From positions 1 through 42,493 of the forward strand of contig JAUWCU010000007.1 of assembly GCA_030609135.1 (NCBI GenBank): 42,493 nucleotides of DNA. Direction: 5' to 3'. The position numbers were made by a program, and so were the translations under genes. Numbering within the stretch: the stretch's first letter is position 1; each line of letters opens with the position of its first letter. The notes under the pieces were generated by a model. That model saw only the letters and a program-made list of their open reading frames with translations, did no database searches and had not been told where the DNA came from. This stretch comes from Candidatus Stahliibacteriota bacterium (GTDB lineage: Bacteria > Hydrothermota > Tepidihabitantia > SM23-42). Below are positions 22,473-29,142 of this stretch, in pieces.

Positions 22473-22500
22473 TTGACACCTTGTATTTATTGTATATAAT
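22473..22500 (+). promoter_or_regulatory. Consensus promoter of the C25-like protease/V-ATPase operon
   Basis: TTGACA-N16-TATAAT, then 5 nt to ATG 22506. Confidence 0.8.
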
Positions 22501-22505
22501 CTCCA

Positions 22506-23570
22506 ATGCGCATACTCATGCTCAGCGGCAAAGATACACTAAAGCGACAGATTGTCAATATTTTGAACCTGGAAAAGGCAGTGCAAAAATACATTAAAAA
22601 CAGACAAGAACATCAGATGATCTTCTTGTACTATGACAGAAAAAACCGGTTTAAGGTTAAAAAAGCAAAAAAAGATGCACGCTCAATCAGAAAATTTATT
22701 AAACAACTGGAAACAAAATGGGGTAATATCGACTGCTTGTTGATTCTGGGCGGTGATAAGGTAGTGCCCTTTTTTCGACTAAAAAACCCGTGTGATGACA
22801 ACGATAAGAAAGTGTTGTCTGATAATCCATATGCTTCAAGGGATAATAATTTCCTCATCCCGGAACGGATTTGTGCACGGATTCCGGATAATAATAATGC
22901 CGATTTTATTATCGGACAATTGAACAAATACAGCAAGGTTACACTGAAGTCATTTGGGATAAGTACGAAAGTCTGGAAAAAGGCATCAGAGAATGTATAC
23001 CAGCGAATCGGTAAGGTCAGAGATATGAAGGTTTCACCGCCGGTTAAAAGCAAGACATTCAAAGCTCGATGGCTACAAAATAAGGACTTTTTATACTTCA
23101 ACCTACACGGCAGTAAACTCTCAGCGAATTGGTACGGCCAAAAAGGTGGTAAATACCCGGTTGCCATCGGTTTAGAAAATATTAAAAAAGCATCAGGTGT
23201 GGTTGGATGTGAAGCCTGTTATGGGGCATATATTTTGAACAAATCCCAAGAAAATGCGATGTCCCTTAAGTTTCTTAGTGAAAAAAGGATTTACGGATTT
23301 TGTGGCTCAACCACACTTGCCTATGGACCAGTTGCCCCACCGTCGAGTGAGGCTGATCTTATGGTAAAATACTTTTTTGAATATGTGAACCAGGGTTTCA
23401 CATTGGGTGAGAGCTTTAAAAATGCCAAGCTTGATTTTGCGCGGAAAGTGTTGAAACACCAAGGGTTTTTAGATGACGATGACCAGAAGACGCTACTTCA
23501 GTTCGTCTTATATGGTGATCCCACGTTTCGATTAGAGCACAAAATTTTGAAGAAAAAAGGGAAGAAGTAA
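22506..23570 (+). CDS. Predicted cytosolic C25/clan CD-like cysteine protease
   Basis: 354 aa without a signal peptide; DFLYFNLHGSKLSANW (candidate His), VVGCEACYGAYI (candidate Cys), LLQFVLYGDPTFRL (C25-type end motif). Confidence 0.75.
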   Translation: MRILMLSGKDTLKRQIVNILNLEKAVQKYIKNRQEHQMIFLYYDRKNRFKVKKAKKDARSIRKFIKQLETKWGNIDCLLILGGDKVVPFFRLKNPCDDNDKKVLSDNPYASRDNNFLIPERICARIPDNNNADFIIGQLNKYSKVTLKSFGISTKVWKKASENVYQRIGKVRDMKVSPPVKSKTFKARWLQNKDFLYFNLHGSKLSANWYGQKGGKYPVAIGLENIKKASGVVGCEACYGAYILNKSQENAMSLKFLSEKRIYGFCGSTTLAYGPVAPPSSEADLMVKYFFEYVNQGFTLGESFKNAKLDFARKVLKHQGFLDDDDQKTLLQFVLYGDPTFRLEHKILKKKGKK

Positions 23571-23572
23571 AA

Positions 23573-23851
23573 ATGATTAACAAGAAAACAGTTAATAGAA
23601 TAAAACGGATGGTTTTTAAAAAATTCCCAGAGTTTAAAGGGATTGATCCGAAAATACTGGAAAGGAAAGTCAAGCCGCAGAGTGCAATCTACAGAAAACT
23701 GTCACTTGGTACACCGAAGATATTGAGAAAAATCTTTCGATTGAAGTTCGAAAAGAAAGTGACAACTGTTGATGAAATGGAGATTGACCGGATTTTGACC
23801 GTGACCCTCAATGAAGCGGGCGAAATAATAAAGATAACTGAATCACGATGA
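23573..23851 (+). CDS. Small basic protein of unknown function
   Basis: 92 aa, Lys/Arg-rich; starts 2 bp after the protease stop and overlaps the next gene by ATGA. Confidence 0.7.
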   Translation: MINKKTVNRIKRMVFKKFPEFKGIDPKILERKVKPQSAIYRKLSLGTPKILRKIFRLKFEKKVTTVDEMEIDRILTVTLNEAGEIIKITESR

Positions 23852-24762
23852 TAAAAGGAACTGACGATACAAGGTATGCATATGTAAATGGTATTATACG
23901 CGCACGCGAGGCTCGGTTACTGACGAAAAGCCATTTTGACCGACTCATCGCCAGTACCTTAAGCAATTTTGCGACAATACTATCAGATTCACCTTATATT
24001 GGGCATGAAGATATTACCGCAGGTTTTGATTTGGAGGAGAATCAGGTTGGAGATTTATTCAGAAGATACTGCCAGCACAGTGAGATCCAACAGTATATTG
24101 ATTGGCCTCAGCAGATTCATAATATAAAGGTGAAGTTGAAAGAGGGTAGTGATTCTTTACTTTATGCACAGCCCGGCGCGGAAATTGAAGACTGGCCTGA
24201 AACTATTGAAGAGATTGAAAGATTTGCAATGGACAAAGACCCGTTTATACTTTCGGCAAACCTCGATAAAATTTTGTGCAAATACCTGTACCAAACTGCC
24301 CGGACAATGCTGTTTTTTAAAGGCTATTTTCAGATTTATTTTGACCTTGAGAATATTCGTAGTTTTTTTAGAGCACGTTACTTTGAAAACGCGCGCGAAA
24401 CATTTAACCAGGTATTTATAGAATACGGCAGCCTTGGTCGAGAAATATTTGTCGATAATTTGACGAGCGGGTATGATGTGCTGGGTAAAAATTTCTTTAC
24501 AACACCTTATGCTGGAGTAATGGATAAAGGAGGAGCATACTTTGAGCAAAATAGATCCTTTCTGAAACTGGAAAGGATGTGCGAAGAGCTGAGGTTAGAA
24601 TTCTTGCGCCAGGCACGTAAGATGACTTTTGGCGTCGAACCATTGTTTGCGTATTATCAATTTAAACTTGCCGAAATAAAAAAACTGCGACAAGTTTATT
24701 GGGGTAAGTTGAACGAAGTCCCGGTTGATGATTTAAAGGAGAGTATCCCTGATGTCTGGTAA
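23848..24762 (+). CDS. V-type ATPase subunit C
   Basis: 304 aa; TRYAYVNGIIRAREARLLTKSHFDRLIAS; position directly before F, A, B. Confidence 0.85.
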   Translation: MIKGTDDTRYAYVNGIIRAREARLLTKSHFDRLIASTLSNFATILSDSPYIGHEDITAGFDLEENQVGDLFRRYCQHSEIQQYIDWPQQIHNIKVKLKEGSDSLLYAQPGAEIEDWPETIEEIERFAMDKDPFILSANLDKILCKYLYQTARTMLFFKGYFQIYFDLENIRSFFRARYFENARETFNQVFIEYGSLGREIFVDNLTSGYDVLGKNFFTTPYAGVMDKGGAYFEQNRSFLKLERMCEELRLEFLRQARKMTFGVEPLFAYYQFKLAEIKKLRQVYWGKLNEVPVDDLKESIPDVW

Positions 24763-25075
24763 AGCAATGGCAATAATCGGGCAAAGAGAAACAATAATGC
24801 CATTTCTGGCAACCGGGGCACATGTCGTCTATATTAAAGAGGGCGAAAGTGTTGATATTGTCGAGGCACTTGTTGCTCAAGGCTTTAAGATTATCTTTTT
24901 TACTGAAGAGTTTATCGATGAATTAGATGGTATTTTGATGAAATACCGTAATCAAACCATTCCTTGTTTGATTCCCATCCCGACTGGAAGGGGTAAGACA
25001 AAACTTGCTATCGAAAGGATAAGAGGTGTGATTAAAAAAGCTGTTGGAGTCGATGTTTTCTTGGAGGAAAAATGA
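24752..25075 (+). CDS. V-type ATPase subunit F
   Basis: 107 aa; GFKIIFFTEEFIDEL...IPCLIPIPTGRGKTKLAIERIRGVIKKAVGVDV. Confidence 0.88.
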   Translation: MSGKAMAIIGQRETIMPFLATGAHVVYIKEGESVDIVEALVAQGFKIIFFTEEFIDELDGILMKYRNQTIPCLIPIPTGRGKTKLAIERIRGVIKKAVGVDVFLEEK

Positions 25076-26862
25076 GGAAAGGAGAAATTACCAAAGTATC
25101 AGGACCGCTTGTTGTCGCGAAAGACATGAAAGGCAGCAAGATGTATGATGTGGTTCGGGTGAGTGAAGAGCGTTTGGTCGGCGAAATAATCGGACTTTCT
25201 GGCGATACCGCGTCAATTCAGGTATATGAGGAAACATCTGGTATTGGTCCTGGTGAACCGGTTTACATAACTGACAAACCCCTCTTTGTTGAACTCGGAC
25301 CCGGTCTTATTGAATCAATTTATGATGGTATTCAGCGACCTTTGGATATTATCAGAGATCAAACCGGTGATAATATTGCTCGAGGTGTGGAAATCCCTGC
25401 ATTGGAACGCGACGTGAAGTGGGTGTTCAAACCACTTGTTAAGAAAGGTGATGCAGTATCCAGTGGTGATATTATAGGTGAGGTAAAAGAGACCGTACTT
25501 GTTTTACACAAGATAATGGTTCCGCATAATATCGAAGGCAAAATAAAGAACATTAAACAAGGCGAGTTCTTGATAACTGATACGGTGTGTGAGATTGAGA
25601 CCAAGGATGGGGTTGTTAAACTTACAATGATGCAGCATTGGCCAGTACGTTTACCACGTCCTTACAAGAAGCGGCTTGCGCCATCACTCGTACTATCGAC
25701 TGGGCAGCGGGTGATTGATACATTTTTTCCAATTGCTAAGGGCGGTACGGCTTGCTGTCCTGGTCCTTTTGGAAGCGGCAAGACTGTGATTCAACACCAA
25801 TTAGCTAAATGGGCAGATGCTGAGATAGTAGTTTACATCGGGTGTGGTGAACGAGGTAATGAGATGACTGATGTGCTTATGGAATTCCCCGAGTTAAAGG
25901 ATCACAGGTCCGGTGAATCATTGATGAAACGGACCGTACTGATCGCCAATACGTCGAATATGCCGGTCGCGGCACGAGAAGCTTCAGTTTATACTGGTGT
26001 TACGATAGCTGAGTATTTTCGAGATATGGGCTATTCAGTAGCAGTTATGGCTGATTCAACATCGCGCTGGGCTGAAGCGATGAGAGAAATATCAGGTAGG
26101 TTAGAAGAGATGCCCGGAGAAGAGGGCTACCCTGCTTATCTCAGTGCAAAAGTCAGTTCATTTTATGAAAGAGCAGGTAGGATCGAGGTAATTGGCAAAC
26201 CAGACCGAGAAGGTGCCCTGAGTGTGATCGGTGCGGTATCACCGCCGGGCGGAGACTTGTCTGACCCGGTTGTTCAAGCGACGCTGCGTGTTGTGAAGGT
26301 TTTCTGGAGTCTTGAGGATCGATTAGCATATCAGCGTCATTTTCCGGCGATTTCATGGTTAAACTCTTATTCTCTTTATATCGACGACGTCAGTGAGGAG
26401 ATGAATACGACTATTGCAAAGGATTTTACAGATTTAACAAAGGAAGCCATGCGTCTCTTAGAACAGGAAGCTGAGCTTCAGGAGATCGTAAGGCTCATTG
26501 GGGTTGATGCTTTGTCTCCAGAAGATCGTTTGATTCTCGACGGCGCGAAGTCTATTCGCGAGGATTTCTTGCATCAAAATGCATTCCACGAAGTTGATAC
26601 GTATGCTTCTCTTGAGAAACAATACAAAATGCTTGCGGTGTGTTTGTTTAACTACAATAAGGCAAAAGAGGCATTATCACGTGGTGCTGCATTTAACGAC
26701 ATCGTCAAAATGAAAGTTCGGGAGAAAATATCGCGTATGCGGTACTTGTTAGAATCAGAGCTATCAATTATGGATCGGTTACAGGATGAGGTGACCGCGG
26801 AATTCAAAAAACTCGCAAATCCAGGAGGAAGGAATGATAAAGGAATACAGCAGCATTCTTAA
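25072..26862 (+). CDS. V-type ATPase subunit A
   Basis: 596 aa; [26 protein letters not shown]-loop, [52 protein letters not shown]. Confidence 0.98.
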
Positions 26863-28222
26863 TGTATCCGGTCCACTTTTGCTTATTGAAGGTGTTGAAG
26901 GCGCAAAGTATGAAGAATTAGTTGAAATCTACACACGAGCTGGTGAAAAGAAACGCGGCAGGGTTCTGGAAGTAGATAAAGATAAGGCTTTGGTTCAAAT
27001 TTTTGAAGGGTCCACAGGTATTGATGTACAGGATTGCCGTGTTAGATTTCTCGGTCGGACACTGCACATTGGTGTATCATCTGATATGTTAGGCAGGATC
27101 TTTGACGGACTGGGTAGGCCTAAAGATGGTGGTCCTGAAATCATCCCCGAAGCAATGCTTGACATAAACGGCGCACCGATCAATCCAACTGCCCGAAATT
27201 ACCCAAATGAATTTATCCAGACCGGGATTTCTTCAATCGATGGCATCAATACCCTGGTAAGAGGCCAAAAACTGCCGATTTTCTCAGGTTCTGGTTTACC
27301 CCATAATCGGGTTGCCGCTCAGATTGTGCGGCAGTCAAAGGTCCTTGGTGCTAAGGAGGAATTTGCAGTTGTGTTTGGTGCAATGGGCATCACTTTTGAA
27401 GAAGCGAATTTCTTTATTCAGGATTTTACTAAATCAGGGGCATTGGAAAGAGTCGTGCTTTTCTTAAACCTGGCTGATGATCCGGCAATTGAACGTGTTT
27501 CCACACCTCGCGTTGCCTTCACCGTTGCCGAGTATCTTGCCTTTGAAAAAGGTTTGCACATCCTTGTTATCCTTTCTGATATGACTAATTATGCTGAGGC
27601 GCTCCGGGAAATAGCTGCGGCGCGTAAAGAGATTCCAGGACGACGTGGCTATCCTGGGTATCTATACACTGATTTGGCAAGTGTCTATGAACGTTCCGGC
27701 AGAATAAAGGGTAAGGAAGGCTCGATCACACTGATACCTATCCTTACGATGCCTGAGGATGACAAAACTCACCCGATACCGGATTTGACCGGTTACATAA
27801 CCGAAGGCCAGGTTATACTTTCAAGATCACTTTATCGGAAAAAGGTTACCCCGCCGATCGACGTGCAGCAATCATTGTCCCGTCTAAAAGATAAAGGTAT
27901 TGGTAAAGGTAAAACGCGTGAAGACCATGCTGATTTATTTAACCAGTTAATCGCGTGTTATGCACGAGGTAAAGAGGCTGCTGAACTATCCGTAATATTA
28001 GGTGAGGCATCTCTGTCTGATTTAGACAGGATATTTCTTAAATTCTCAAACCAGTTTGAAGAACGTTATATTTCTCAAGGTGAAAAAGAGAATAGAACGA
28101 TCGAGCAAACTCTGGATCTTGGTTGGGAACTACTGCGTATGGTACCGCGAGCTGAAATGAAGAGAGTGAGGGATGAATACTTACAGAAATATTATGACCA
28201 CACAGATGACACAGAAAAATAA
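26834..28222 (+). CDS. V-type ATPase subunit B
   Basis: 462 aa; [66 protein letters not shown]. Confidence 0.98.
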
Positions 28223-28282
28223 GGATAATATATTGAATAATCCGAGTAATCGATTTATCACAAAATCTGTGGAATCAGTGTT
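28196..28282. repeat. Possible dispersed intergenic repeat between subunits B and D
   Basis: gaccacacagatgacacagaaaaataagg...taatcgatttatcacaaaatctgtggaatcagtg: CACAGAT/ATCTGTG-rich arms around a 60-bp gap inside an otherwise overlapping operon. Confidence 0.5.
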
Positions 28283-28915
28283 ATGAAGCTGGATATTCCG
28301 CCGACCAGGATGCAGTTGCTGCGTTTGAAGCGACGTGGTACAATTGCCCGGCGTGGCCATAAATTGCTCAAGGATAAACAGGATGAATTAATGCGCAGGA
28401 TTCTTGAACTCGTTGGCAAAATACGGGATTCCCGTTTAAAGATTGAACAGGAGTTGAAAAGCGCGTTTAGCTATTTCTACTTTGCTTCGAGTAAACAGTC
28501 TCCCAAAGCCACTGACGAAGCGCTTTTGGCAACGACCAAAGCTATTGATGTGGACTATACCACAGAACGTATTTTGAACTTGAAAATCCCTAAGTTTAAA
28601 CAAACGATATCAGGTGGTTTGATCGGCTATGGTTTCATGACCACATCAGGTGATTTGGATCTCGCCCTTTTGAAGATTGACCAGCTCATTTCGAGATTAC
28701 TTGAGCTCGCCGAGCTGGAAAAAGCACTTGAGCTTCTTGCTACGGAAATTGAGAAAACCCGTAGGAGAGTTAATGCATTAGAATATATCCTAATACCGTC
28801 TATTGATGAAACGATCAAGTTTATTAAGCTGAAAATGTCAGAAATGGAACGGGGTGACTTAACGCGCCTGATGAGAGTTAAAGAAATAGTGAGAGGAAAC
28901 AAGGAGGTATCATGA
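28283..28915 (+). CDS. V-type ATPase subunit D
   Basis: 210 aa; PTRMQLLRLKRRGTIARRGHKLLKDKQDEL and RRRVNALEYILIPSIDETIKFIKLKMSEMER. Confidence 0.95.
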   Translation: MKLDIPPTRMQLLRLKRRGTIARRGHKLLKDKQDELMRRILELVGKIRDSRLKIEQELKSAFSYFYFASSKQSPKATDEALLATTKAIDVDYTTERILNLKIPKFKQTISGGLIGYGFMTTSGDLDLALLKIDQLISRLLELAELEKALELLATEIEKTRRRVNALEYILIPSIDETIKFIKLKMSEMERGDLTRLMRVKEIVRGNKEVS

Positions 28916-29142
28916 TTGAAGGTTTAGTGAGTGTTTTGATATTGGCTTTCCTTACCTTAATCTTTGGTTTAATAAAAGATTTGCTTATTGTCATTATCCC
29001 GCAGATTATTTTAATCCTCGTAGTAATCTATCTCTTGGTCCGTGTACGCGTAAAAATCTCCAAAGCTGAAAAGGAGAAACTAAGAACCAAGATAGATGAA
29101 TTGGAAGCAAAGATTGGGACTATAGGAACAAAGAAAGAGTAA
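28912..29142 (+). CDS. Small membrane/coiled-coil protein of unknown function
   Basis: 76 aa; hydrophobic N-terminal half, charged coiled-coil KAEKEKLRTKIDELEAKI; ATGA overlap with subunit D. Confidence 0.7.
   Translation: MIEGLVSVLILAFLTLIFGLIKDLLIVIIPQIILILVVIYLLVRVRVKISKAEKEKLRTKIDELEAKIGTIGTKKE

Follow-up and report, generated by a model that had tools for sequence, protein, structure and literature searches.

A predicted cytosolic gingipain-fold peptidase and its small partner protein head a V-ATPase operon in Candidatus Stahliibacteriota

Why should genes for a peptidase and a small basic protein stand at the head of an operon for a vacuolar-type ATPase (V-ATPase)? This arrangement is found in a stretch of 42,493 nucleotides (referred to here as the window) from a Candidatus Stahliibacteriota genome (GCA_030609135.1, contig JAUWCU010000007.1; 2.56 Mb, 96% complete), where a single operon encodes a C25-like peptidase, a basic protein of 92 amino acids (aa) (SP92), the V-ATPase subunits C, F, A, B and D, and a 76-aa protein (TM76). 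The original prediction for this locus was that the peptidase may regulate V1 assembly, with the small protein as partner, inhibitor or substrate. Comparing the locus across its phylum (WOR-3/Stahlbacteria) and beyond, we found that the conserved unit is the peptidase with SP92 and not the protease with the ATPase. Families, genomes and loci of the comparison set carry f-, G- and L-numbers, f1 being the family with the gene order of the window.

The peptidase scored 43.5 bits against the Pfam C25 model (cutoff of 23), and its AF2 model had a pLDDT of 95 and a pTM of 0.93. In a Foldseek search of this model against the PDB, gingipains took the top five places, with RgpB (4ief; E value of 1.8e-13, TMq of 0.68) and Kgp as the best matches, followed by TPR-CHAT and separase; PorU was also among the fold matches. 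A PDB sequence search with the peptidase profile returned nothing useful, and only the fold search was informative. The clan CD, C25-like assignment proposed earlier was thus upheld by both the Pfam model and the fold. The histidine and cysteine singled out in the original prediction correspond to His201 and Cys238, which, together with Gly202 and Glu236, are invariant across 56 peptidase sequences, as are the motifs FNLHGS (His201) and EACYGA (Cys238), and the histidine precedes the cysteine as in the clan CD dyad. The protein consists of the 354-aa peptidase domain only, and a gingipain-type signal peptide, prodomain or secretion domain was not found in it. Given that residues 2 to 7 are modelled as a core strand, the absence of a signal peptide, also claimed earlier, agrees with the predicted structure, and the model supports a cytosolic location. 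Taken together, this supports placing the peptidase in a cytosolic branch of the known gingipain fold with the dyad intact.

Within the phylum, the peptidase is present in 43 of 147 genomes and SP92 in 42, all of which also have the peptidase, so that SP92 without the peptidase occurs in none of the 147 (Fisher's test, 4e-36, uncorrected for phylogeny). The lone genome with a peptidase and no SP92 is 77% complete. Both genes are adjacent in 39 genomes and unlinked in 3, these being f16 genomes that have them on separate contigs, both present, with an SP92 that ends in S-T-[ST]-K. The suggestion that the small protein is a partner of the peptidase is therefore borne out by this co-occurrence (42 of 43 genomes) and by a fusion in Chloroflexi described below. 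In one genome (G068, L056:6582-6920), the 3' ends of both genes look frameshifted, probably an assembly error at low coverage.

SP92 belongs to no family in Pfam or NCBIfam. Its AF2 model (pLDDT of 87, pTM of 0.69) shows a helix followed by an antiparallel sheet and, searched against the PDB by sequence and by fold, SP92 gave no convincing match; ribosomal L29e and PqqD were rejected as identities, since their matches were far under cutoff. The tail follows the consensus ...(D/N)xxGx(I/V)(I/L)K(I/L)xxS(K/R)-COOH. In the alignment of stand-alone proteins, Ser91 is conserved in 93% and the final residue is Lys or Arg in 89%, while both features reach 100% in the alignment of fused domains. Among 96 distinct tails listed, which include a few chance open reading frames, Lys or Arg comes last in 86 and Ser precedes the final position in 88; as background, S/T-K/R ends make up 0.8% of 492 C termini of neighboring genes. 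In stand-alone and fused forms alike, the tail ends at an encoded stop.

A wider scan with one genome per species yielded 216 peptidase relatives, and the ones retrieved belong to WOR-3, TA06, Cloacimonadota, Eisenbacteria, Altarchaeum, an uncultured archaeon and many Chloroflexi. The pair itself extends beyond the phylum to TA06, Eisenbacteria, Altarchaeum and Chloroflexi. SP92 adjoins the peptidase in the Eisenbacteria and archaeal loci and is fused to its C terminus in Chloroflexi, where 38 chains of the Chloroflexi type end in this way; the stand-alone and fused profiles align with an hhalign E value of 9e-16. Both longer Chloroflexi chains scanned carry N-terminal TPR repeats, and a large upstream gene clusters across 40 loci; two examples of it were scanned and proved to be TPR or NACHT-TPR. 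Thirteen Chloroflexi loci have, besides the SP92-bearing peptidase, a further stand-alone SP92 gene on the far side of an FtsZ gene. As a side observation, locus L132 (2688-13193) and 14 similar Chloroflexi loci combine a NACHT-TPR or TPR gene, the C25-SP92 fusion, MraZ (in L132), FtsZ and a second SP92. Such a cluster may encode a system for regulated proteolysis that is linked to a second FtsZ.

How, then, might the two proteins work together? The reading that we favor, if tentatively, is that of a two-component cytosolic peptidase with SP92 as its dedicated regulator or inhibitor, the basic C terminus lying in the S1 pocket, and with the ATPase as a coexpressed passenger. SP92 would bind the peptidase and hold it off, its terminal Ser-Lys/Arg occupying the S1 pocket as a bound product would, and a signal or a competing substrate would displace the tail and free the enzyme; in Chloroflexi, the domain would act in cis from within the peptidase chain. 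The peptidase itself may have a basic P1 specificity. The C25 family cleaves after Arg or Lys, the prodomain of RgpB inhibits by placing an Arg into S1, and legumain is self-inhibited through its C-terminal domain (PMC4357240). In caspase-7, the residue two positions before the catalytic cysteine lines S1 (Gln184 and Cys186) (PMC4357240). The matching position here holds the invariant Glu236, and we count these cases as precedents for docking in S1.

Several points weigh against this reading. While Glu236 is invariant two positions before Cys238, no counterpart of Asp163, the S1 aspartate of RgpB, was mapped, and the PDB searches gave no known-inhibitor fold or sequence for SP92. The two archaeal SP92 proteins have Gly-Asn as their last residues, and a few other tails finish with His or Gly, which is at odds with a strict basic-P1 rule. 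Finally, the overlap of SP92 with the gene for subunit C is retained in each of the 21 f1 genomes that carry the peptidase and recurs in f5, which exceeds what a neutral passenger would need. The foremost rival, in our estimate an unlikely one, is that SP92 activates the peptidase or recruits substrates to it, its small alpha/beta domain presenting targets and its fixed tail binding another site on the peptidase or a target. Obligate pairing and C-terminal fusion suit any subunit role, and the 13 Chloroflexi loci keep an extra SP92 gene although their peptidase already carries the domain; a terminal Ser-Lys/Arg, however, suits the S1 pocket of a C25 enzyme, and self-inhibition at the active site is common in clan CD (PMC4357240).

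The place of the ATPase was assessed from its distribution. Membrane and stalk genes had been described as lacking, which is correct for the window but not for the genome: the genes for subunits I (PF01496), K (PF00137) and E (PF01991; slightly below the Pfam cutoff) and a 115-aa H-like gene without a Pfam match lie together on contig C135, with neither A nor B beside them. Subunits A, B, C, D, F, E, I, K and H are all present in the genome, and no single contiguous operon was found (contigs C114 and C135). Given one copy of A and the H-I-K-E cluster on C135, the V-ATPase is split in two rather than partial and, with H-I-K-E made from the other locus, a whole V-ATPase is encoded. Loss of E, I and K is ruled out by the genes on C135, and a second V-ATPase by the single A copy. 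In the sister family f2, the ATPase forms one operon, C-F-A-B-D-H-I-K-E, at a separate locus from the pair, and TM76 directly follows SP92; in f1, C-F-A-B-D stands between SP92 and TM76. The idea that C-F-A-B-D had been precisely excised from a place flanked by an MFS gene and H was rejected, the MFS gene not being beside the f2 operon.

The neighborhood survey did not confirm the expectation that the linkage would be conserved in relatives: it is confined to f1, where subunit C lies directly 3' of SP92 in 21 of 21 peptidase-bearing genomes, plus subunit C alone in f5, where (L092) an ATGA overlap again joins SP92 and C, with F and A located on a separate contig. In this f5 locus, an MscS-like mechanosensitive channel gene (L092:2214-3203) comes after the C gene, the rest of the ATPase being elsewhere. 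In f2, f11, f15, f16 and f28 to f31, no ATPase genes adjoin the pair. Subunit D is present in 122 of the 147 phylum genomes, versus 43 for the peptidase, so most V-ATPase genomes of the phylum are without the peptidase, and in G001 (99% complete) and G067 (95%), which carry the pair, V-ATPase A, C and D were not detected. As a general function of the module, regulation of V1 assembly is thus unsupported. Because the pair occurs without the ATPase in the families named, we regard the ATPase as a passenger, probably a local add-on to the peptidase and SP92; the position of C-F-A-B-D within the f1 module probably reflects its transcription from the strong leaderless promoter of the peptidase.

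A second rival, which we consider improbable, is that in the f1 lineage the pair acts on the V-ATPase by trimming or controlling V1 assembly or subunit C, the placement of the ATPase in the operon serving stoichiometry. It draws on the ATGA overlap and fixed order of SP92 and C in f1, on the retention of subunit C alone with the pair in f5, and on a vertical subunit C tree, ((f1,f2),f5), but it has to contend with the many V-ATPase genomes without peptidase, with G001 and G067, and with the separate loci of f2. From this tree, the C gene is accounted for by vertical descent, and the linkage by either loss or convergence. Since the overlap persists in 21 f1 genomes and recurs in f5, a lineage-specific role of the pair at the ATPase is possible. 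It is highly improbable that SP92 is mainly a substrate or carrier, cut or ligated by a peptidase that performs transpeptidation, as PorU and plant legumains do. In favor of this reading are the conserved, exposed C terminus of SP92, the presence of PorU among the fold matches and a sortase-like enzyme among the clan CD relatives. Against it, the gene already encodes the Ser-Lys/Arg end, whose exposure needs no cleavage, and fusion to the enzyme itself would be odd for a carrier.

The sequences of G076 and G085 (L055, L156 and L157), although recorded as single contigs, are interrupted time and again by 100-N joins (∼2.4 kb apart in L055), and gene distances there are therefore unreliable. The C gene after SP92 in G076 runs into such a join, and the apparent unlinking of the ATPase in both genomes was not taken as evidence, a join being present at each break.

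Compared with the gingipains, the peptidase shares a C25 match over the Pfam cutoff, the fold and the order of the His-Gly and Cys dyad, but differs in its low identity (13 to 15%), its predicted cytosolic location, the lack of a signal peptide, prodomain, Ig-like domain or secretion domain, and its obligate SP92 partner, separate or C terminal. TPR-CHAT/Craspase and separase are the next-best fold matches, and the Chloroflexi peptidase likewise follows TPR repeats; however, no CRISPR effector was seen beside the peptidase, and the WOR-3 forms are without TPR. In staphopain-staphostatin operons, a cysteine peptidase gene is followed by a gene for a cytosolic inhibitor. The present pair resembles them in having a small cytosolic protein encoded directly 3' of a cysteine peptidase, but the peptidase clan and the small-protein fold are different, the peptidase is not exported, and SP92 is a candidate inhibitor. 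Bacterial V/A-type ATPase operons share the C-F-A-B-D order, and H-I-K-E is in the genome; here, the genes form two loci, with the V1 half within the peptidase module.

More speculatively, the pair could represent an undescribed two-component intracellular protease of several bacterial phyla and archaea, under pseudo-product inhibition by a new domain and coupled separately to the V-ATPase or to TPR/NACHT scaffolds and FtsZ. The SP92 domain and its pairing are absent from Pfam, NCBIfam, PADLOC and the literature searched; we consider them provisionally new, because many subscription papers lie outside that literature search, which turned up no paper on an operon joining C25 with V-ATPase and none on Anaerolineae C25 peptidases. 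An eLife 2020 paper on conflict systems does not mention C25 or gingipain. A phage origin was rejected, as no viral contig relatives were found, and so was antiphage defense, since no window protein, including the peptidase and SP92, has a PADLOC match; weak TPR-type matches were seen only for one Chloroflexi neighbor. Gingipain-fold peptidases have been studied as secreted virulence enzymes, whereas the branch described here is cytosolic, occurs in uncultured bacteria and archaea and comes with an obligate partner domain unnamed in the family libraries searched. If the tail does dock, clan CD peptidases would have a simple means of control that lends itself to direct testing, and a domain with a terminal Ser-Lys/Arg could mark regulated proteolysis in genomes without genetics.

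Gene order and coordinates in the window (Table 1) are as originally claimed, and the tight junctions reported then were recovered: a gap of 2 bp between peptidase and SP92, and 4-bp ATGA overlaps at SP92/C, F/A and D/TM76. Subunits C and F overlap by 11 bp. Each of the five V-ATPase subunits encoded here exceeds its Pfam cutoff.

Table 1. Features of the peptidase-V-ATPase operon and its 3' neighbor in the window
Feature	Position	Strand	Remarks
Sigma70-type consensus promoter, TTGACA-16-TATAAT	22473..22500	+	12/12 match
C25-like (gingipain-fold) cysteine peptidase, 354 aa	22506..23570	+	Pfam PF01364, 3e-11
SP92, 92 aa, ends ...GEIIKITESR	23573..23851	+	No Pfam/NCBIfam family
V-ATPase subunit C	23848..24762	+	PF01992, 2.5e-30
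V-ATPase subunit F	24752..25075	+	PF01990, 5.8e-13
V-ATPase subunit A	25072..26862	+	Above Pfam cutoff; sole copy in genome
V-ATPase subunit B	26834..28222	+	Above Pfam cutoff
V-ATPase subunit D	28283..28915	+	PF01813, 2.2e-50; sole copy in genome
TM76, 76-aa membrane/coiled-coil protein	28912..29142	+	No Pfam or NCBIfam family
TG406, 406 aa	29211..30431	+	No Pfam or NCBIfam family; N-terminal hydrophobic segment; transglutaminase-like Cys/His motifs

The promoter noted earlier in front of the protease matches the consensus at every position, and 5 nt separate the end of its -10 box from the peptidase ATG. Given that this spacing is kept in 21 of 21 f1 and f2 loci checked, the window among them, the peptidase mRNA is probably leaderless. 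The gene for TG406, 3' of TM76, is present in 12 loci, and its motifs NDCDGRS and TNHLAIGL look transglutaminase-like by eye.

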